Shown: positions 4,675 to 32,211 of the stretch, piece by piece
How the letters are laid out: each line of letters opens with the position of its first letter
Numbering within the stretch: the stretch's first letter is position 1
Source: Coriobacteriales bacterium
GTDB taxonomy: Bacteria; Actinomycetota; Coriobacteriia; Coriobacteriales; Atopobiaceae
DNA: 32,211 nucleotides
NCBI GenBank assembly: GCA_030529665.1
Contig: JAUMWL010000001.1
Coordinates: 1-32,211, forward strand
Direction: 5' to 3'
The notes under the pieces: model-generated
Database searches by the model: none
What the model saw: the letters and a program-made list of their open reading frames with translations, nothing else
What the model was told of the DNA's origin: nothing
Translations under genes and position numbers: made by a program

Positions 4675-4836
4675 ATTAGTGGTAAATTTAGAGAGTAGTT
4701 AACATTTTATCTGGTGTTTTGTGGAAGTCGATTCCTTAATTTACCACTAGCTATTTTATACAGTGGTAAATTTAGAAATTGACTACTAACATCAACTGGT
4801 GTTTTTTCGAGTTTTATGTCAGAAATTACCACTAAT
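4675..4836 (+). repeat. Copy A of an AT-rich bipartite palindromic element (about 160 bp)
   Basis: Two imperfect palindromic units of 71 bases (4678-4748) and 72 bases (4762-4833) are separated by 13 bases (AGCTATTTTATAC). Each unit begins AGTGGTAAATTT, has (C)TGGTGTTTT near its middle, and ends with the reverse complement of the start (AATTTACCACT or AAATTACCACT). The outer ends are ATTAGTGGT and ACCACTAAT. The same architecture with the same unit lengths occurs on the other strand at 13276-13437. It contains no credible ORF and lies between the divergent marR and pentapeptide genes. It could be a MITE, a BIME-like repeat or a protein-binding array; I cannot decide which. Confidence 0.85.
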
Positions 4837-4870
4837 GTGCACGGGCAAAACTTCGCGGCGTCCTTGCGTG

Positions 4871-4899
4871 TTGATTGGCAGGCGTTCGACCCCCTAAAT
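4871..4899 (+). promoter_or_regulatory. Candidate promoter of the pentapeptide-repeat gene
   Basis: TTGATT (4871-4876) and CTAAAT (4894-4899) with a 17-base spacer would start transcription near 4906, leaving a leader of about 70 bases. It lies just downstream of repeat copy A. It is a pattern match only. Confidence 0.4.
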
Positions 4900-4977
4900 C
4901 GGCGTCCATAGCGTGCGTGCCGTTAAGGATGCGTTGCGCTACCCTATATGCGGGGGTCTGGAGACGGGGGTGGCGAC

Positions 4978-5598
4978 ATGGGATCGATCGCAGAGCTGGT
5001 TGAGCGTGCGCAAAGAGCGGATGACCCGTACATAGAGGGGGTGTCCGCACAGGGCGAGGTGCTGGCTGCGGGCTTTAACCTGCAGTTCTTTGAGATCCAT
5101 CACTCTGATTTTGACCATTGCGGCCTTTGTGGCACAAACATGCGCAAAGCGAGCTTCTATGACTGCACGTTTACAGGCTGTGACTTCTCAAATGCCCTGC
5201 TAGAAGGCGCGTACTTTGCCCGTTCGCGATTTGTGGGCTGCAAGTTGGAGGGAGCCCAGCTTACAGGCGCGTTCCTTCGCTCGTCACGTATGGTGGACTG
5301 CGTGTGCCGTTACGCCAACATGGGCGAGCTGACCTTGGAAGGTGCGTTGCTGCAAGGCTGCGACCTGCGCGAGGCCTTCCTTAACGAGGTCCAGTTTCGC
5401 AAGCGCACGCGCTTGGAACGTTGCGACCTTACGCGAACCGACCTGTTCCGTACGAGTCTTAAGGGCATGGATTTGTCCACCTGCAACATTGCGGGGTTGC
5501 TTGTGAGCGACACGCGCCAAGAGCTGCGTGGAGCCATCATTGACGCCGAGCAAGCCGTAGACCTCGTGGGGCTTCTGGGAGTACAAATTAAGAGCTGA
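4978..5598 (+). CDS. Pentapeptide-repeat protein (Qnr/McbG-like fold)
   Basis: A 206-aa protein whose central part (about residues 35-180) repeats the five-residue A(D/N)LxX-type pattern, with Phe/Leu/Met at the centre and Cys frequent (for example FYDCTFTGCDFSNALLEGAYF). This is the signature of a right-handed quadrilateral beta-helix. The C-terminus, LRGAIIDAEQAVDLVGLLGV, is the capping helix typical of Qnr-like and related pentapeptide proteins, some of which protect DNA gyrase by mimicking DNA. The start is the ATG at 4978, preceded by GGGGGTGG; an in-frame upstream ATG at 4948 lacks a site. It is divergent from the MarR/ABC exporter operon. The fold is clear; a gyrase-protection role is only a possibility. 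Confidence 0.85.
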   Translation: MGSIAELVERAQRADDPYIEGVSAQGEVLAAGFNLQFFEIHHSDFDHCGLCGTNMRKASFYDCTFTGCDFSNALLEGAYFARSRFVGCKLEGAQLTGAFLRSSRMVDCVCRYANMGELTLEGALLQGCDLREAFLNEVQFRKRTRLERCDLTRTDLFRTSLKGMDLSTCNIAGLLVSDTRQELRGAIIDAEQAVDLVGLLGVQIKS

Positions 5599-5654
5599 GT
5601 ATTCCAAGGGCCCGTCTTGGGTCGTGATGGAAAAGTAGCGAGGAAAGAGGAAAC

Positions 5655-6584
5655 ATGGTCTATGGATATGCCGCACGCCGCATCCTGCTGTTTGCGTTTG
5701 CATGCGCATTGGTTGGATGCGCGGGCACTGTGGGGGAGCAGTCCGCAAAGAGGGTTTTGAGTCGTCCGGAAGACGATCCCCAGGCACTGCTTCCTGCAAA
5801 CTCCTACGTGCTGGAAGACGTATTTGAGGTCGATGGTCGTCAAGGCGTTGCTGCGGAGGGAAACCTTGTGTGGGTAAGTGGGTCGACCACGCTCTCATGC
5901 TACGACGGTGACTGGAACCTCATTGCCACAAACGATTCGCCATTTGATGCGGGATATGATTTGGAGGTAAACCACATCGGAGACATAGACGTGTGGCAGG
6001 GCGAGGTGTATGCAGGTGTGGAGAAGTTCTTGGACGGAGAGGCCAAAAACATCCAGATTGCCGTGTACGATGGAAAGACGCTCAAGCTCAAGCGCACCTT
6101 TGGCTTCGAGCCCAAAAGCGGTCAAGACGAATGCAGCGGCATTTGCGTTGATGCGCAAACGGGCAGCGTGTGGATGTGCTCCTGGACCTCAACAGGTCGG
6201 TACCTGTATCGATATGACCTTAAGAGCGGGGCGTACCTCGGTCGCGTGCAGCTCCATGCAAGTCCGCAGTGGATTCAAGGCGTGGCATGCCATGAAGGTT
6301 CGTTGTATGTAACGGCTGACGACGGTGATGCCGACTTGGACGAGCCCGACCATGTGTATCGCATAACGGTACCCGAGGGTGCGACCCACGCTACCGTGGC
6401 GCTTGAGCGAACACTCGATGACGTTACGCTCCAAGGAGAGGTGGAAGGACTTACCTTTGCCGATGACGGTCACATGATGGTGCTGTACAACCGTGGTGCT
6501 CGCATCGTTGCAGGCATGCCTACGGGCTTTTATGACGGCTATGACCACGAGATTCACGAGGTCTTTGTGTATGGCGTGGAATAG
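5655..6584 (+). CDS. Predicted lipoprotein, beta-propeller-like
   Basis: A 309-aa protein with a short basic N-terminus, a hydrophobic stretch and a lipobox ALVGC at 18-22, so Cys22 should be lipidated and the protein exported and membrane-anchored. The body has recurring short strands of the type 'GxVWVSG', 'DIDVWQGEVYAGV', 'GICVDAQTGSVWMCS', 'GVACHEGSLYVTADDGD' and 'GLTFADDGHMMVLYN', spaced like blades of an NHL or SMP-30-type propeller. I recognise no catalytic motif. The ribosome site is GAGGAAAGAGGAAAC before the ATG. It follows the pentapeptide gene by 56 bases with no strong terminator and may be co-transcribed. The function is unknown. Confidence 0.8.
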   Translation: MVYGYAARRILLFAFACALVGCAGTVGEQSAKRVLSRPEDDPQALLPANSYVLEDVFEVDGRQGVAAEGNLVWVSGSTTLSCYDGDWNLIATNDSPFDAGYDLEVNHIGDIDVWQGEVYAGVEKFLDGEAKNIQIAVYDGKTLKLKRTFGFEPKSGQDECSGICVDAQTGSVWMCSWTSTGRYLYRYDLKSGAYLGRVQLHASPQWIQGVACHEGSLYVTADDGDADLDEPDHVYRITVPEGATHATVALERTLDDVTLQGEVEGLTFADDGHMMVLYNRGARIVAGMPTGFYDGYDHEIHEVFVYGVE

Positions 6585-6603
6585 GGGCGGCGGACTGACT
6601 CCT

Positions 6604-7479
6604 TTAATGTGTCATCAATCGCGCCAGAAGCACATTGGTGAGTACCTGGAGCGCCACGGCGTCGGGGGCTTGCCGGGGGAGGCTGTGGCCAACGTTTGGC
6701 ACGACCACAAGGCGCGCACCGGGAATCGCGTTGGCGATGGCGTGCGTCTCTTCCTGCGTTATGCAGTCGTGCTCGCCCACGAGCACGCAGGTAGGGCAAG
6801 CTATGGTGGCAAGGCTCGCGGCGTCGATGTGGGGCTCGTCCAGCATGAGCTGCAGGAGCTCTGCCGAAAGACCCGCATCCTCAACAGAAGGGAAGAGCAG
6901 CGTGGCATCGATGCCGGACGACTGCGCCTGGCGCAGGTTATCCGGATTCGACCAATAGCCAGCCCAGGCACGGTTGAGGCTAATCGAGCCTTGGATGTCC
7001 CAGTCGGGCTCCTCTATCACGCCCTCGGGCGTGAGGTTTGCGCCGCCTGCCATGATCGACGCCACGCGCTCTGGATAATCTCGTGCAAGGAGGAGTGCCT
7101 CTATGCCGCCGTCGGAGTGACCCACAACGTGCGCGCGCTGTATGCCCAGATGGTCAAGAACCGCAATCGCATCGGCTGCCATCTGCTCGTAGGTAAGAGG
7201 TGCGGCGCCGCGTGTGGATTGCCCCTGCGCGCGAGCGTCAAACGCCACGACGGCAAGACCCGCAGCCACGAGGCGCTCGATGACCGCGCAAAACGTTGAG
7301 TGGGACCCACCGTTGCCATGCAGCGCGAGCACCGGAGTACCCTGGGCGGCGAGCGTGCCATACACAAACGTGGCTAGCTTTGCCTCGTCAGGTGTCTCGA
7401 TTTGCTGAGCATAGCTCAGCGGCGCCTTTGGCAGCGCATACATGGTCGTGCGATACGGACTCGGTGGTGTGGGCATCAT
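6604..7479 (-). CDS. Alpha/beta-fold hydrolase
   Basis: A 291-aa protein with the alpha/beta-hydrolase order: oxyanion-hole strand LALHGNGGS (about 52-60), nucleophile elbow GHSDGG (Ser122), acid in GEHD (Asp238) and catalytic His in NVGHS (His265). The start ATG at 7479 is preceded by GGAGGAGG; upstream in-frame codons overlap the phosphatase gene and are not credible. It lies 50 bases after the histidine-phosphatase-like gene on the same strand, probably in the same transcript. An esterase or lactonase-like role is likely but the substrate is unknown. Confidence 0.88.
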   Translation of the reverse strand: MMPTPPSPYRTTMYALPKAPLSYAQQIETPDEAKLATFVYGTLAAQGTPVLALHGNGGSHSTFCAVIERLVAAGLAVVAFDARAQGQSTRGAAPLTYEQMAADAIAVLDHLGIQRAHVVGHSDGGIEALLLARDYPERVASIMAGGANLTPEGVIEEPDWDIQGSISLNRAWAGYWSNPDNLRQAQSSGIDATLLFPSVEDAGLSAELLQLMLDEPHIDAASLATIACPTCVLVGEHDCITQEETHAIANAIPGARLVVVPNVGHSLPRQAPDAVALQVLTNVLLARLMTH

Positions 7480-7529
7480 GGCCTCCTCCGATTCTTTGGG
7501 TCTGAGAAAGGTTGTGGCAATCGACGTGA

Positions 7530-8228
7530 CTACGCCTCGCCGCACAGCGCGCGACGTGCGGCATCGAGGTCCATGGCCCAGCGGTTGGGAACGCCCGAAC
7601 CGTCGAGGCCGCCGCAATCAATGCCTGTGAAGTCTTGCTGATAGACTTCCACGCTGGTAAACACGCCGTCTTCCCACTCATACACATAAGTCATGCAATT
7701 GCTGTTTGCTCGCGGACGCTCGAAGCCGGGCCCTAGCACCTCCGAATAGAACTGCCCAAGCGACCCGCCCGAACCTACCACGAGCACGTTTTGCGTGTTG
7801 GGATCGGCCATTATCTCGCTCATACACGAAGTGATGCGCTCACAGATCTGCTCGTAGCCCTCGCCGCCGCCGGCGCTCATTACCAGGCCGCGCACCTCCA
7901 TGAGGCCAGGGCCAAAGCCCGGCTCTATGAAGTCGTCCTTTGCCTCAAAGATGCCAAAGCCGCACTCTCGCAGTCCCTTCTTGCGCACATAGGGCTTCAC
8001 CTCGCCAAATGCGGTTTGGCACACGAGCTCCATTGTGTCGCAACAGCGCTCCGAGGTACTCGTATAGAAGTGGTCAAACGTAACGCCGCGACGACGCAGC
8101 TCTTCTCCGGCAACGCGACACTGCTCCACGCCTCGCGGTGTGATGGGAGAGTCGCACCACCCTTGGCTCTTGTGTTGGACGTTAAACAGGGTCTCGCAGT
8201 GGCGCATGGCATACAGGAGCTTCTTCAT
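7530..8228 (-). CDS. Histidine phosphatase superfamily protein, catalytic His missing
   Basis: A 232-aa protein starting MKKLLYAMRHCETLFN, the RHG-type phosphatase motif with Arg9 and the phosphorylated His10. It keeps the second Arg (SERCCDT, Arg61) and the acid in GLRECGFG (Glu88). Where the family has VSHGG, this protein reads VGSGG (151-155), so the second catalytic His is replaced. It may bind phospho-ligands without turning them over, or use another residue. The start ATG at 8228 has GAGG 7 bases upstream; an in-frame ATG at about 8240 lacks a site. ATAATA at 8261-8266 could be its -10 on the minus strand. It leads a probable two-gene unit with the alpha/beta hydrolase. Confidence 0.85.
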   Translation of the reverse strand: MKKLLYAMRHCETLFNVQHKSQGWCDSPITPRGVEQCRVAGEELRRRGVTFDHFYTSTSERCCDTMELVCQTAFGEVKPYVRKKGLRECGFGIFEAKDDFIEPGFGPGLMEVRGLVMSAGGGEGYEQICERITSCMSEIMADPNTQNVLVVGSGGSLGQFYSEVLGPGFERPRANSNCMTYVYEWEDGVFTSVEVYQQDFTGIDCGGLDGSGVPNRWAMDLDAARRALCGEA

Positions 8229-8312
8229 GACAGACCTCATCTCTTTTTGGGAACATAACCATAATACGCCAAAGAGAAGGGGCACGAAGCAAAGCTTTTG
8301 GACAACAAACAT

Positions 8313-8341
8313 ATGACAGTGCGCGTCGGTTGATATAAAGT
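8313..8341 (+). promoter_or_regulatory. Candidate promoter of the flavodoxin gene pair
   Basis: ATGACA (8313-8318) and TAAAGT (8336-8341) with 17 bases between them lie about 50 bases ahead of the first gene. No operator is evident. Confidence 0.45.
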
Positions 8342-8389
8342 GTTGAAGGAACATTCGGCGATGCCCGTCATCGGACGAAAGGAATGGCC

Positions 8390-8878
8390 ATGAAAGTGAT
8401 TCTCCACGACCTGGGGAGTGAGCACAAAGAGCTCATTGAGTCCAAGTGTGACCACGTGGTGGTGGCAGACGGAAGGTATGCCCCTTGTCAGGGATGCTTT
8501 GGCTGCTGGACCAAGCATCCCGCCGAGTGCTTTATGACGGACAAGCTTCAACGGGTGTGCCGCATTTTGGGGCGGGCGGACGAGCTGGTGATCGTGTCAC
8601 AGAACCTGTATGGCGGGTACAGTACCGCCGTAAAGAACGTGCTCGATCGCTCGATCGGCACCTCCACGCCGCTCAGCACCTATCGTGGCGGACAGATGCA
8701 TCACACACTGCGTTACGGCAAGCACGACCTGTGGAAGGTAGTCGTGTACGGTGATACCACCCAAGCCGAGAAGGACACATTTTGCCAGATGGCCGAGCGC
8801 AACGCGATCAACGACGGATTCTCGCGCTCTGAGGTCGTGTTTCTTTCTGACCTTGCGGAATTGGAGGGTGTGCTATGA
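8390..8878 (+). CDS. Flavodoxin-fold NAD(P)H/FMN-dependent oxidoreductase
   Basis: A 162-aa protein of the NADPH-dependent FMN reductase/flavodoxin group. It contains the Cys motif PCQGCFGCWTKHPAECFM, typical of the iron-sulfur-flavoprotein-like branch (CxxCxxC plus a following Cys), and the FMN-binding loop VSQNLYGGYSTAVKNVLDRS. I start it at the ATG at 8390, six bases after GAAAGGA; the ATG at 8384 is too close to that site. Its stop overlaps the ATG of the next gene (ATGA). Expected in the cytoplasm with FMN. The electron partners are unknown. Confidence 0.85.
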   Translation: MKVILHDLGSEHKELIESKCDHVVVADGRYAPCQGCFGCWTKHPAECFMTDKLQRVCRILGRADELVIVSQNLYGGYSTAVKNVLDRSIGTSTPLSTYRGGQMHHTLRYGKHDLWKVVVYGDTTQAEKDTFCQMAERNAINDGFSRSEVVFLSDLAELEGVL

Positions 8879-9606
8879 AGACCGTGTTTATTAATTGCAG
8901 TCCCAAGAAGCGGTTTTGCGCCTCGGCATACTTTCTCTTTTTGCAGCGCCTGTTTGTGGGTGGGCAGAAGGTCACCGTAAGGCTGCGTACGCCGGCGGAT
9001 TACGACCGTGTGCTTGAGCAAATCGCAGATGCGCAGGCCGTGGTGTTTGGCATGCCGCTGTATGTGGACGGCGTACCGTCTCATGTGCTGCGCTTTATGG
9101 AGGAGATGGAGACGTTCTGCAAGCAGAATGGTCTGAGCCTTAGCGTGTACTGCGTCGCCAACAACGGGTTCATCGAAGGCAGGCAGAACGAGCCGCTCAT
9201 GCAGGTGCTCCAGAACTTCTGCATCCGCGCGGGGCTTGTCTGGGGCGGGGGCGTGGGAATCGGCGGCGGCGTGATGCTCAACGTGACCCGCATCCTGTTT
9301 GTGGTGGACATCGCCCTGTTAGTGATCAACACGGTGCTCAGCATCGTGAACACCGGCAACCTCTTTCCCGTGGACGCGTGGATCAGCTTTGGTACAAACG
9401 CGCTGCTTCTGCTGTACTTTAACCTTGGCGTGCTGTTCTATCTGGCGCGCATGGGCTCATCCATTCGCAAGGGCGGGCCATGTGGCAAGAAGTACACCCG
9501 CATTCTGCTTCCTTCATTTGTCTTTATCCTGTTTGCAGACATCTTCTTTGTGATCATATCCGTGCTGCAAGGTGGTATCTTTAGAGGCTGGCTGGCAAAA
9601 AAGTAG
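8875..9606 (+). CDS. Flavodoxin-like domain fused to a C-terminal membrane region
   Basis: A 243-aa protein. Residues 1 to about 140 resemble a flavodoxin-fold oxidoreductase: an N-terminal beta strand KTVFINCSPKK where the phosphate loop should be, and VVFGMPLYVDGVPSHVLRFMEE as the second flavin loop. The CxxC cluster of the upstream gene is absent. From about 138 onward there are three or four predicted membrane segments (TRILFVVDIALLVINTVLSI, ALLLLYFNLGVLFYL, ILLPSFVFILFADIFFVIIS). It overlaps the previous gene by four bases (ATGA), implying that the two proteins are made together and perhaps form a membrane-tethered flavin pair. A GGGGACGGGGACG hairpin follows the stop directly. Confidence 0.78.
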   Translation: MKTVFINCSPKKRFCASAYFLFLQRLFVGGQKVTVRLRTPADYDRVLEQIADAQAVVFGMPLYVDGVPSHVLRFMEEMETFCKQNGLSLSVYCVANNGFIEGRQNEPLMQVLQNFCIRAGLVWGGGVGIGGGVMLNVTRILFVVDIALLVINTVLSIVNTGNLFPVDAWISFGTNALLLLYFNLGVLFYLARMGSSIRKGGPCGKKYTRILLPSFVFILFADIFFVIISVLQGGIFRGWLAKK

Positions 9607-9607
9607 G

Positions 9608-9667
9608 ACAGCGGGGACGGGGACGTTTGTCCTGCGAAGGCAGAACAGGCGTCCCCGTCCCCGCTGT
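9608..9667. terminator. GGGGACGGGGACG-type hairpin, bidirectional terminator candidate
   Basis: Perfect 18-base arms (9608-9625 and 9650-9667) lie exactly between two convergent genes. The core GGGGACGGGGACGTTTGTCC recurs in a second hairpin at 24176-24239. There is no clear T-run, so this may be a repetitive hairpin that also serves as a transcription end. Confidence 0.7.
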
Positions 9668-9673
9668 GCGCAG

Positions 9674-11689
9674 CTACTTTATTGTGCTGGGGTGCTTCTG
9701 GAAGAAGTCGAAGCGCGGCGGCAGGGGCACGATGGCGTGCTGCTCGGGCGTCTTACCTGCCAGTGCCGCGAGCTCACGCGGGCCGTCAAAGGCGTGCTCC
9801 CAGCTAAAGAACACGTCCTTGTCAAATGCCATGTGCTCGCACACCTTCTCGCAACCCCAAGGTGCTGCGGCGTGCATGAGCAGCGTGAGCGTGCGCAGGG
9901 CCACGAAGGCGTCGGCCAGCGCCTGGTCGTAGGCAGCGTCGTCGCCCTTGGCCGCCTTGCTGGCATCGCCCCAGCGCTTGTTGGCCGCACGACCGTACTC
10001 CTCGGCCACGCCCAGCGCACCGTGTGCATCAAACTCGTAGGCCCGCTGCTCAAAGGCGAGCGTTGCCGCGCGGGCCTCTTCCACGACCTCGGCATGCGGC
10101 TTGGCCACGGGCAGGTGCGAGTCGCAGGCGTTTGCCGCGCCATAGAAGCAGCTGCGGGCCAGACGGTTAAAGATGTTGGTAAGGAAGGCGCTCTCCTTGA
10201 GGGCGGGGTCGGCCACGCGCGGGTCGTCCTTTACCAGCACCTCCTCTCCGGTCTTCTTGTTCTTGTGGCTTACGCTGGTGTCAAACGCCTTTGGCGAGAA
10301 GCTCACGGCCTTTTGGTCGAGGCCCAGGCTCAGCCAGTGGGTGCGCAGCTGTTCGGGCGTGTAGTAATCCAGCAGCTCGGCTGCCATGGGTGGGGCGATC
10401 TTTCCCGAGCTGGAGGCCTTCTTGTTCATAAAGAGAATATGGTGGTTGGCAACGGGTGTGTCTTGGAACAAGCCCCAGTCCAGCGCCTCCCACATGGCGG
10501 GCTGGGCCACGCAATAGAAGTAGATGTTGTCCTGGCCAATAAACTGATACACGCGGGCGTCGTCTGCGCACCACCAGTCGTGCCAGTCGGTTGAGCTGTA
10601 GCGGCCTTCCGGCGCGATGGCAAGCGCGGTCTGCACAAACGAGATGGGTGCCCACAGGCTCTCGGGCCAGCACCACACCGTGAGGTCGTGCGTGTCCTCC
10701 AAGTCGGGGGCTGCGACGCCCCAGGTAATGTTGCCCGTAATTCGGAAGGGCAGGAGCGTCTTGCCTGTGCGGAAGCGCACGCCCGCCGCGTCGAGCGTCT
10801 CGCGCGCGGCGTCGCGGTCTTGCCAGTTGGCAAACTCCACCGAGAAGGACTGCTGGTTGCCCTCGGCCTCGCGAAGCGTATGGGCGGGCAGCTTGGCCTC
10901 CACCGCGTCAAAGGCCTCGCGGAACTTGCTCTGAATGTACATCACCGGTGCCGCCAACGACTCGCGAACGGTCTTTGTTACCACGGCACGCACCTGCGGG
11001 TCGGCGTCCCACTCGTCCATGAGCTTCTGTAGCTCGTCGCGGAAGCCGGGCAGGTCAAAGTACCAGTTGTCCACGGGGCGAAGCTCGGGCGTGGTCCCTG
11101 TGAGCTGCGACACGGGATTGATGAGCTCCTCGGGGTCAAACTGATGTCCTAGGTCGCACTCGTCGGCGTAGGCCTTCTCGCTCTTGCAGCCACGCACAGG
11201 GCAGTGGCCCTGCACCTGGCGGCCATTGAGGAACTGACCCGCCTTGGTGTCGTAGAACTGACGCGTGGAGAGCTTGAGCAAGTGGCCCTTCTCGTACAGG
11301 CGGCGGATGAGCTCGTCGGTGAGCTTGGCGTGAAAAGGCGCCGCCGGCTCTAGGCCAGAACCAGCATATATGTCTAGCGAAATGCCGTAGGCGTCGAGTG
11401 CCGACTTTTGCGCGTCGTGGTTCTGGCGCACGTAGTCGATTATGCTGCCTTCATAACCGGTCTCCTGGCGCTTGCGGTAGCCCTCCATAATGGGGGAGCC
11501 GTAGCAGTCGGTGCCGCTCACAAAGATGACGTTTTCCTTGCCAATGCGGTCGCGCAGGAAGCGCGCAAAGAAGTCTGCGGGCACAAACACGCCACCAATG
11601 TGGCCAAAGTGCAGGTTCTTGTTGCCGTAGGGCATGCCACCGGTTATGACGGCGCGTACGGGAAAGGTTGGACGGGATTCGGAGGCCAT
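9674..11689 (-). CDS. metG: Methionyl-tRNA synthetase
   Basis: A 671-aa class I synthetase that charges tRNA(Met). Nucleotide-binding motifs are HFGH (27-30, HIGH motif) and KASSSGK (about 424-430, at the KMSKS position). A zinc-knuckle-like Cys cluster reads GHCPVRGCKSEKAYADECDLGH. FVSGTDCYGSPI follows the first half of the Rossmann fold where many MetRS have GSDEHGTP. These variants mark a divergent MetRS branch, but the length and domain order fit. The C-terminus is helical with no tRNA-binding EMAP-like extension. The start ATG at 11689 has GAGGAGAA just upstream; longer frames would cross the promoter. No T-box leader fits in the short upstream region. The gene is monocistronic and convergent with the flavodoxin pair. 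Confidence 0.93.
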   Translation of the reverse strand: MASESRPTFPVRAVITGGMPYGNKNLHFGHIGGVFVPADFFARFLRDRIGKENVIFVSGTDCYGSPIMEGYRKRQETGYEGSIIDYVRQNHDAQKSALDAYGISLDIYAGSGLEPAAPFHAKLTDELIRRLYEKGHLLKLSTRQFYDTKAGQFLNGRQVQGHCPVRGCKSEKAYADECDLGHQFDPEELINPVSQLTGTTPELRPVDNWYFDLPGFRDELQKLMDEWDADPQVRAVVTKTVRESLAAPVMYIQSKFREAFDAVEAKLPAHTLREAEGNQQSFSVEFANWQDRDAARETLDAAGVRFRTGKTLLPFRITGNITWGVAAPDLEDTHDLTVWCWPESLWAPISFVQTALAIAPEGRYSSTDWHDWWCADDARVYQFIGQDNIYFYCVAQPAMWEALDWGLFQDTPVANHHILFMNKKASSSGKIAPPMAAELLDYYTPEQLRTHWLSLGLDQKAVSFSPKAFDTSVSHKNKKTGEEVLVKDDPRVADPALKESAFLTNIFNRLARSCFYGAANACDSHLPVAKPHAEVVEEARAATLAFEQRAYEFDAHGALGVAEEYGRAANKRWGDASKAAKGDDAAYDQALADAFVALRTLTLLMHAAAPWGCEKVCEHMAFDKDVFFSWEHAFDGPRELAALAGKTPEQHAIVPLPPRFDFFQKHPSTIK

Positions 11690-11725
11690 GGTTCTCCTCT
11701 CGTGGATTTGTGATAAACGCAGGTG

Positions 11726-11754
11726 ATTATCCCACACTGTGGCGCATGGCACAA
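11726..11754 (-). promoter_or_regulatory. metG promoter
   Basis: On the minus strand, TTGTGC (11749-11754) and GATAAT (11726-11731) have a 17-base spacer, about 40 bases ahead of the metG ATG. This supports the start at 11689. Confidence 0.6.
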
Positions 11755-11801
11755 ATACCCGATAAGAACAGGTGGATGGGTCTGGCGCGAGCCATAGCGT
11801 T

Positions 11802-11818
11802 TGATACAATGCGTCGCA
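11802..11818 (+). promoter_or_regulatory. Extended -10 promoter for a probable leaderless transcript
   Basis: TGATACAAT (11802-11810) is an extended -10 with no clear -35. Transcription would begin about 7 bases later, at or next to the ATG at 11818. Confidence 0.45.
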
Positions 11819-12351
11819 TGAGACACTTGATGGACATAGACTTGCTTGACGACGAGGCGTTGCAGAGCAGCATGGCAACGGGCAGCCTGTGGATTGTGCT
11901 CGTTGGCACAGTGCTGGGAGTGCTGGGAGCGATTGCGCTTCCTCACGAGGACATAACTCCCTGGTGGTTCGTGGCCCTGGGCGTTTTGAGCATGGCAGCC
12001 CTACCCGTACACGAGCTGGTGCATGCGGCGGGGTTTAAGGTGCTGTCGGGCGGGAAGGCGCGACTTGCGTTTGGGTTCTCTAGCTGGATGCTCTATACGG
12101 CCGCGCCGGGATGCGTGCTCCCACGTGGTCGGTTTTGTGTGGTGCTGTTGGCTCCTGCCGTGGTGATTACGCTTGCCTTGGGCCTTGGAGCTTGGATGAT
12201 GGGTTACCCGCTGCTGGGTTGGTCTTTGGCCGTAGTGCACCTTGCGGGCTGCACGGGCGATATGGCGTACGTGCGCATCATTGCCAGCGAGCCGCAAGTA
12301 ACAATGGTGCAGGATACCCAACGGGGCATTTCGCTGTTTTGTGACGAGTAG
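11818..12351 (+). CDS. DUF3267-like membrane protein with HExxH motif
   Basis: A 177-aa protein with about four to five predicted membrane segments (24-42, 50-63, 100-125, 130-150). HELVH at 65-69 is a zinc-metalloprotease-type motif set in a membrane segment (PVHELVHAAGF), as in DUF3267 and site-2-protease-like families. AGCTGDMAYVRII near the C-terminus (H/D-containing) resembles the third zinc-ligand region of that family. The start is uncertain: ATGs occur at 11809, 11818 and 11830 and none has a good ribosome site. I prefer 11818 because it falls at the predicted transcription start. The substrate is unknown. It converges with the ICMT-like gene, leaving only 21 bases between. Confidence 0.72.
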   Translation: MRHLMDIDLLDDEALQSSMATGSLWIVLVGTVLGVLGAIALPHEDITPWWFVALGVLSMAALPVHELVHAAGFKVLSGGKARLAFGFSSWMLYTAAPGCVLPRGRFCVVLLAPAVVITLALGLGAWMMGYPLLGWSLAVVHLAGCTGDMAYVRIIASEPQVTMVQDTQRGISLFCDE

Positions 12352-12372
12352 CATCTGGTTTTGTAAACGCAA

Positions 12373-13044
12373 TTACCAAATGTGGGGGACGAGCCGGTAG
12401 CGAACGCGCTGCACGTACTCGGCGTATCCCGGCAGGTCACGTTTAAGCACGTCCTCCTCGTTGGCGATTCGTCGGGCAATCAGCGGAAGATAGGCGAGCA
12501 TGATTGCAAACGAGAAGGGCGACCCCAGCACCAGCGGCATGGAGAGAAACAACACAACCGTTGCGCTATACATGGGGTGGCGCACTACGCCATAGAGTCC
12601 GGTATCGATGACGTGCTGTCCTTCTTGCACCTTGATCGTACGCGAGAGGTACTCGTTTTCGCGCAGCACCTCGGCGTATAGGGCATAGGAAGCCAAAAAC
12701 AACACGGACGCCGCCCACGAAACACCCATGGGCAGCATTGGCCAGTCAAACCTATGTCCCAACCCCGCAACCACAAATGCCGCGACAAACATTAAGGCGC
12801 TCCACGCCAGCACGCTTCGCTGCTCTGCCTCGGCCTCGCGTGCGCTCAGGCGCTCGCGCAGGAGGTTGGGCGCCTTGGCCATCATAATGAGGCCGGCTAC
12901 AAACATGGGCACAAACAGGACGCCCATAAAGAGCCAGCCTTGCGTCCACGCAAGCGTACCCGCTGGCACAAACAGCAGAAGGCCAACCACGGTCACACCT
13001 AGGGCATACTTGGTGAGTGCAGAAACAAAGAGTTGCTTGTTCAT
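12373..13044 (-). CDS. Isoprenylcysteine carboxyl methyltransferase-like membrane protein
   Basis: A 223-aa membrane protein with about five membrane segments. The C-terminal half carries the ICMT/PEMT family pattern: GLYGVVRHPMYSA (about 143-155) and RRIANEEDVLKRDLPGYAEY (about 190-210), which bind S-adenosylmethionine at the membrane surface. In bacteria such proteins methylate lipids or small molecules; real prenylated CaaX proteins are not expected. The start ATG at 13044 has AAGGA upstream; an earlier in-frame start would overlap the -10 at 13075-13080. It converges with the DUF3267-like gene. The substrate is unknown. Confidence 0.85.
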   Translation of the reverse strand: MNKQLFVSALTKYALGVTVVGLLLFVPAGTLAWTQGWLFMGVLFVPMFVAGLIMMAKAPNLLRERLSAREAEAEQRSVLAWSALMFVAAFVVAGLGHRFDWPMLPMGVSWAASVLFLASYALYAEVLRENEYLSRTIKVQEGQHVIDTGLYGVVRHPMYSATVVLFLSMPLVLGSPFSFAIMLAYLPLIARRIANEEDVLKRDLPGYAEYVQRVRYRLVPHIW

Positions 13045-13074
13045 GGCGTGAGTCCTTCCCCAAAGATTGTGCCT

Positions 13075-13080
13075 AGTATA
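13075..13080 (-). promoter_or_regulatory. Candidate -10 of the ICMT-like gene
   Basis: TATACT on the minus strand lies about 30 bases before the ATG. No convincing -35 is present. Confidence 0.35.
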
Positions 13081-13577
13081 ACGGCGTCTTATGGGGCGGA
13101 TGCCCCCCATTTCTCTGCAAAAGGGGATTCCGCAACAGTTTTTCGCCCCGTAGTGGTGGCAAGATCGCCTCGACTCGTCCCGATTCTGACGTTATGTAGC
13201 TTAACTACCCTCGCTGGGATGCTTGTTTGCCGACTGAAGCCGCACGGACCTCATCCAGTCTTGTGGTTGCTGCCAATTAGTGGTAAATTCCGACATCAAA
13301 ATAGAAAAAACACCACATAGATCAATATAAAATGTCCAGAATTTACCACTGTATAAAATATACAGTGGTAAATTCTGGAACGCGATCGGATAAAACCCCA
13401 GATAAAACTTTAATTAAATTCTAAAATGACCACTAATTGGCTCCAACCGTCTGAGTGCGTAGGACGTGGGACGCTCGTTTGGCAGCGTGCAGTGTCGCAT
13501 CGCGGTTTTATCACGGTTTTCCCGTGTTTGGTGTTTCTGCTGTGGCCACGCCCACCGGTTTGCCAGCCAGAAGCGAA
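13081..13577. other. Gene-poor intergenic region
   Basis: About 500 bases without a credible gene. It holds the inverted copy of the bipartite palindromic element (13276-13437). The flanks 13081-13275 and 13438-13577 show no ORF with a ribosome site and no RNA structure that I recognise. Confidence 0.6.
13276..13437 (-). repeat. Copy B of the AT-rich bipartite palindromic element, inverted
   Basis: Units at 13279-13350 (72 bases) and 13364-13434 (71 bases) are separated by 13 bases (GTATAAAATATAC). Read on the minus strand, unit order and lengths match copy A at 4675-4836: 71-base unit, 13-base spacer ending TATTTTATAC, 72-base unit. By eye about 50 of 71 and 48 of 72 bases agree without gaps. 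Identity is highest at the AGTGGT/ACCACT ends and around TGG(T/G)GTTTT. The outermost arms extend to CCAATTAGTGG (13273-13283) and its perfect complement (13430-13440). Confidence 0.85.
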
Positions 13578-24175: not shown

Positions 24176-24239
24176 GGACAATGGGGACGGGGACGTTTGT
24201 CCGGCAAAGGCGGGACAAACGTCCCCGTCCCCATTGTCC
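24176..24239. terminator. GGGGACGGGGACG-type hairpin, second copy
   Basis: Perfect 27-base arms (24176-24202 and 24213-24239) around a 10-base loop. It shares the core GGGGACGGGGACGTTTGTCC with the hairpin at 9608-9667. It lies six bases past the tgt stop and ends before the secD-like gene, so it may terminate or attenuate between them. No clear T-run. Confidence 0.75.
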
Positions 24240-31941: not shown

Positions 31942-31989
31942 GCAAGTCGTTCGCGCGGCGATGCGAGTCGCGACGGAGCGTGGCGATGC

Positions 31990-32211
31990 GTGCTGACTTT
32001 TGGAGCAGTGTGAGTCGACCTGCTCCGAGTGTGCTGTGATTGCTAGCTGTGTGGGTCACTCCCAGACATGTGTGCTGTCTTTTGGAGCAGTGTGGGTCGT
32101 CAGTGCAGAAGCGTGCTGTAATCGCGAGCTGTGTGGCCCATCCAACCACACTGCTCGCAAAGTCAGCACACATGACCAGAAACAGCCCACACAGCTCGCC
32201 AACACAGCACG
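31990..32211. repeat. 41-bp repeat array with inverted copies
   Basis: Four direct units at 31990, 32031, 32072 and 32113, exactly 41 bases apart, start GTGCTG and contain GAGC(A/T)GTGTGgGTC (one reads TAGCTGTGTGGGTC). Units 1 and 3 are most alike, as are units 2 and 4 (82-base super-repeat). Inverted copies follow at about 32146-32174 and 32183-32211; the reverse complement of 32141-32211 tracks 32030-32100. Together they can form a large hairpin. The element reaches the window edge, so its full extent is unknown. No ORF. Confidence 0.8.

Follow-up and report, generated by a model that had tools for sequence, protein, structure and literature searches.

The two elements in the window

Two copies, A and B, of an AT-rich element lie on opposite strands, both of them intergenic, in the window, by which is meant the whole stretch of 32,211 nucleotides that was analyzed; it belongs to an uncultured genus, here g1, of ruminant-gut Atopobiaceae. 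The G+C content of both copies is 31%, as against 59% for the window, and each comprises two units joined by a central spacer as follows.

4675-4836, plus strand: copy A with its TTA/TAA ends, running from AGTG at 4678 to CACT at 4833
4678-4748, plus strand: copy A unit 1, 71 bp, with outer arm AGTGGTAAATTTAGA, core and inner arm TTCCTTAATTTACCACT
4708-4720, plus strand: core of copy A unit 1, TATCTGGTGTTTT
4749-4761, plus strand: central spacer of copy A, AGCTATTTTATAC, 13 bp, with the conserved TATTTTA
4762-4833, plus strand: copy A unit 2, 72 bp, with core CAACTGGTGTTTT at about 4793-4805
13364-13434, minus strand: copy B unit 1, 71 bp, with core TATCTGGGGTTTT
13351-13363, minus strand: central spacer of copy B, GTATATTTTATAC, 13 bp
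13279-13350, minus strand: copy B unit 2, 72 bp, with a degenerate core, CTATGTGGTGTTTT

A preliminary description of the window had given the layout as 71 + 13 + 72 bp, which proves exact to the base in both copies, as do the unit identities between A and B that it had counted by eye, 51/71 and 48/72; the AT-richness it remarked on is borne out by the figures above. Its term, a bipartite palindrome, is apt in that there are two hairpin-like units, but the strictest symmetry is a nested one, in which inner arm pairs with inner arm and outer with outer.

The window has further repeats. A second, unrelated and G+C-rich palindrome, GGACAATGGGGACGGGGACGTTTGTCC, is present in two copies (9606-9667 and 24176-24239) that are 84% identical, with arms 89% and 97% complementary and 4 bases between them, and it may represent another repeat family. 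A cluster of direct repeats spaced at 41 bp, with inverted copies whose 65-bp arms are 78% complementary, occupies the end of the window (31981-32211), and a perfect 21-bp inverted repeat, AGGCCCTCCGTGTCCTTCTCT, is found at 169-189 and 229-249, 39 bp apart.

Distribution and copy number

The arm family of the window, AGTGGTAAATT, has eight copies in its own genome (3.18 Mb in 315 contigs, 88% complete) as judged by blastn, the other seven being 75-79% identical to copy A, and relatives repeat the architecture with other arms (AGTGTGGTTTT, AGTGTACACCAAAA and AGTGGGAAGTCGCGAC). Since arms differ among relatives, the centre, CACTNNNTAWWWTANNNAGTG, was used alone to find the whole family. It occurs 24 times in the genome of the window; 15 of the 16 g1 genomes have it, with 1-24 occurrences each, and the reversed pattern, which served as control, has zero matches in all 16. 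A stricter form of the centre is present in 15 of the 16 g1 genomes and in one of 124 other Atopobiaceae genomes, G023, where its single match is about 125 bp 3′ of that genome's copy of the gene described below. Matches in a scan of 84,980 species are mostly to MAGs of Atopobiaceae and Coriobacteriaceae, several with sheep-gut or RUG (rumen) names; seven scattered single matches outside the Coriobacteriales are taken as chance because about two are expected on a rough estimate that assumes uniform composition. The element is absent from the phage collection searched. The two window copies are members of a genuine dispersed repeat family and not a product of chance, and a narrow search of the open literature did not find the family described.

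For several contigs the end falls within a copy or at its edge (G000 C59, C79, C106 and C298, and G004:C107). Assemblies thus break at these repeats, and the copy numbers are lower bounds.

Anatomy of the element

Alignment on the centre of 100 copies from nine genomes shows an element of about 157 bp in which two units of about 72 bp, each consisting of an arm, a CTGG-type core and a second arm, are joined by the TATTTTA spacer. Pairing extends to 17.3 of 20 positions in the inner arms and 12.5 of 14 in the outer; the first value is inflated by the selection of the 100 copies, which required at least 12 inner pairs out of 20. Arm sequences vary between and within genomes, with 45 distinct inner-arm octamers among the 100 copies, and the nested palindrome is retained in each copy. 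All four arms usually have one common sequence (agreement is 9.4/10 for inner with inner, 8.7/10 for outer with outer and 8.0/10 for outer with inner); in L086 and L147 the outer arms are unlike the inner arms, yet each pair is kept.

Unit lengths are quantized at 60-61 (4 units), 71-73 (138) and 83-85 bp (60), with none between. In units where a forward core is found, the usual distance from its CTGG to the inner edge is 35 or 46 bp, which places the outer edge 37 bp away; the length change sits between core and inner arm and comes in 11-bp steps. The idea in the preliminary description that exactly kept lengths reflect constrained spacing is borne out by this quantization, and in the approximately 100 more copies now read the lengths are either kept, as it had expected, or shifted by such steps.

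As 11 bp is about one helical turn, we take the steps to indicate helical phasing on duplex DNA. The value of 11 would also arise from an A-form RNA helix, and the complementary arms vary together, both of which would suit structured non-coding RNAs that fold as two hairpins or as one long nested stem. That the four arms are usually one sequence goes beyond what RNA pairing needs, however, every orientation relative to genes occurs, and no Rfam covariance model matches at its gathering score; RNAs of this kind are the least probable of the explanations considered here.

A cognate gene with matching arms

Comparison of the proteins that flank copies in different genomes revealed a common neighbor, a protein of about 375 amino acids with approximately 45-55% identity between genomes. 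Its strong subfamily, distinguished by profile (more than 450 bits for nearly all full-length members), occurs in g1 and in one further genus, where five genomes have it; most Atopobiaceae genomes have weaker relatives, the protein family as a whole being represented in 130 of 140 genomes; the viral contigs searched have no relative of it. An element lies directly 3′ of every one of the 32 strong genes or remnants examined, at a median of 26 bp from the stop codon (30 cases by an automatic criterion, the other two recognized by eye). The arms are particular to each gene locus and are similar only in close relatives. In the gene-linked elements of L228, L211, L255, L256 and L254 the inner AGTG boundary is altered (ACTG, ACCG, ATTG, TCTT), and drift with the gene can therefore extend to the AGTG edge itself.

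For the arm family of the window the cognate gene is in the same genome (L066, C79:212-1324, minus strand) with its 3′ end facing the element. Most arm families have one copy directly 3′ of the protein gene and the rest scattered between genes of that genome. Among dispersed copies, 60 of 69 (87%) match a gene-linked copy of their own genome at 8 or more of 10 positions, where a match to a random other genome occurs in 5% and shuffling of labels gives a mean of 12.5 and a maximum of 43; the figure of 60 includes five gene-linked arms added or corrected by hand, and a previous count under a different criterion gave 26 strict best matches. One genome, G011, has 22 copies and no close (strong-subfamily) gene, and so orphan arm families exist.

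This linkage bears on whether the elements are instead ordinary MITEs, belonging to a DNA transposon that was not observed, and the neighboring gene is incidental. The TA-rich ends and TIR-like arms, the several to two dozen copies per genome and the contig breaks at copies are all features that MITEs would have, but adjacency to the gene in every case across two genera, arms that match within genomes, and the similar units that flank distant paralogues weigh heavily the other way, and this explanation is strongly disfavored, its likelihood being slight.

Nature of the cognate protein

Searches with the protein against Pfam (no match at E 1), NCBIfam, PADLOC and PDB sequences gave nothing convincing. 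An hhalign comparison with nine DUF559 proteins gave a probability of 85.6% with an E value of 5.5e-6, collinear over 196 columns, in a single pairwise comparison that is uncalibrated on unrelated profiles. The motif order RxPD...GxNYDGxxH...DDxxR...L...G...TKEDL is shared with the DUF559 profile and would fit a Vsr/DUF559-like PD-(D/E)XK fold; the protein is, we infer, a remote relative of the AbiEi/DUF559 (Vsr-like PD-(D/E)XK) proteins. It has an invariant PD and either NYD or NYE, and the position of the usual catalytic Glu is an invariant Asn, so that it departs from D...ExD. Because of this Asn the protein may bind without cutting. An AlphaFold model made with five sequences has a mean pLDDT of 41.6 and is unusable.

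More distant relatives of the gene

At 25 more distant genes, arms that pair at 12 or more of 14 positions are present in the upstream flank in 56% of cases and in the downstream flank likewise in 56%, compared with 0.7% for shuffles. Such genes often have a single unit on each side, and at most loci read the upstream arms resemble the downstream ones; at L258 an identical unit stands on either side of the gene. Cores like CAACTGGGATTTT or CCTGCGG recur at the units of these distant genes. The upstream unit is mostly missing at strong-subfamily genes, and one unit on each side of the gene may be the older form. Relatives at the level of the order match mainly over the N-terminal two thirds of the protein, and those with a readable ORF are mostly without such palindromes, a rough result since the choice of ORF went wrong at several loci.

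The downstream arms of L337 (in G228, from another family of the order), AATAACGCACAAAA, match the arms upstream of L268 (in G120, Atopobiaceae), for which horizontal transfer or a misassigned contig is a possible source.

Placement, dispersal and conservation

None of the 100 copies from nine genomes is within a called ORF. Their gene context is tandem for 46, divergent for 27, convergent for 18 and unassigned for 9, with a background of 120/51/40, and there is no excess among them toward divergent gene pairs, where promoters would be. Between distant congeners the positions are mostly not common, only two of all cross-genome pairs being matched on both flanks, one of which is the gene locus and the other a spacer of G000 and G014 with elements at different positions. 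Exchange of arms in place in this orthologous spacer was considered and rejected, since the alignment puts the elements at different positions and so points to independent insertions or rearrangement.

In two species that are about 95% identical the elements are at the same places at most comparable sites. The differences are as follows: one copy has lost 84 bp between arm repeats and is reduced to a single unit, a deletion of 174 bp ends at an element edge, and there is one rearrangement; no insertion, empty site or target duplication was found in the comparison. As sites differ between distant congeners and are shared in sisters, dispersal is on the time scale of species. The target duplications that the preliminary description had thought worth seeking at empty sites were also looked for by eye; none was found, and no clean empty site was available to compare. 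The elements are slightly more conserved than their flanks (93.9 versus 90.8%, Fisher p = 6e-4 with sites treated as independent).

Regulatory or chromosome-architecture sites are another explanation, in which an arm-specific DNA-binding protein would regulate itself and other genes, with dispersal by recombination and selection and not by transposition. Helical phasing, the invariant Asn at the usual catalytic Glu, the slight excess of conservation over flanks and the single units that distant relatives have immediately before the start codon, as autoregulation predicts, all agree with it. Those relatives carry a unit downstream of the gene too, however, divergent promoters are not favored, convergent sites occur at the expected frequency, and the rarity of both-flank matches, with elements at different positions in one of the two, also speaks against it. 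We regard this explanation as unlikely.

Relation to known repeat systems

REPIN/RAYT (REP-associated tyrosine transposase) systems have extragenic, species-specific pairs of inverted palindromes, a dedicated gene and dispersed copies (PMC3116915, PMC8266576). The elements here are likewise dispersed extragenic palindromes in inverted arrangement and have a cognate gene that carries matching repeats beside it. Unlike RAYT, the protein is without Y1/HUH similarity in Pfam and resembles DUF559; unlike REPINs, the elements have no GTAG tetranucleotide 5′ of the palindrome, their ends being AGTG/CACT and inside the palindrome, and they have four arms, 11-bp spacing steps and a TATTTTA centre, with a length of about 157 bp and a low copy number (up to about 24). 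As the defining protein and tetranucleotide are both missing, they are not filed as REPIN/RAYT, though in working these are the most alike. Orphan families occur in REPIN/RAYT systems. The PATEs and MITEs of IS200/IS605 and the Correia-type elements are short and non-autonomous, with palindromic or inverted-repeat ends; in contrast to them, no parent transposon and no target duplication was found for the elements here. To AbiEi-like/DUF559 proteins the cognate protein has a collinear but uncalibrated profile match with a corresponding order of motifs, and it differs from them in being below Pfam detection at E 1 and in having Asn for the usual Glu. To our knowledge, cognate palindromes have not been reported next to DUF559 genes.

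The explanation that we favor, and think probable, is a dispersed extragenic repeat family recognized by a dedicated protein, REPIN/RAYT-like but with an unrelated, Vsr/DUF559-like protein. The protein would recognize the arms in the DNA duplex, where core and arm would occupy a fixed face of the helix, and this recognition would have spread the element through the genome, either because the protein nicks and copies it or because it guides repair, as is thought for RAYT/REPIN. Both readings in the preliminary description, a non-autonomous mobile element with terminal inverted repeats and an array of sites bound by one protein, still stand and are possibly one thing; the cognate gene family, the diversity of arms and the single-unit form that flanks distant relatives were unforeseen in it. 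A wider proposal, more tentative and with chances that fall a little short of even, is that this is a RAYT-independent class of interspersed palindrome, in which a Vsr/DUF559-derived family has many paralogues in the Atopobiaceae, each gene carrying and recognizing its own unit, with arm and protein co-diverging and the two-unit form having spread in one genus.

Significance

The known REP-like repeats with a dedicated gene have HUH transposases. A second, unrelated protein family with arm-specific sites would, if the explanation is true, mean that partnerships between gene and repeat arose more than once, and the dozens of arm-protein pairs would give a natural data set on how a nuclease-like fold reads DNA. 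A large and as yet unnamed family of proteins in gut Coriobacteria would also gain a likely role.
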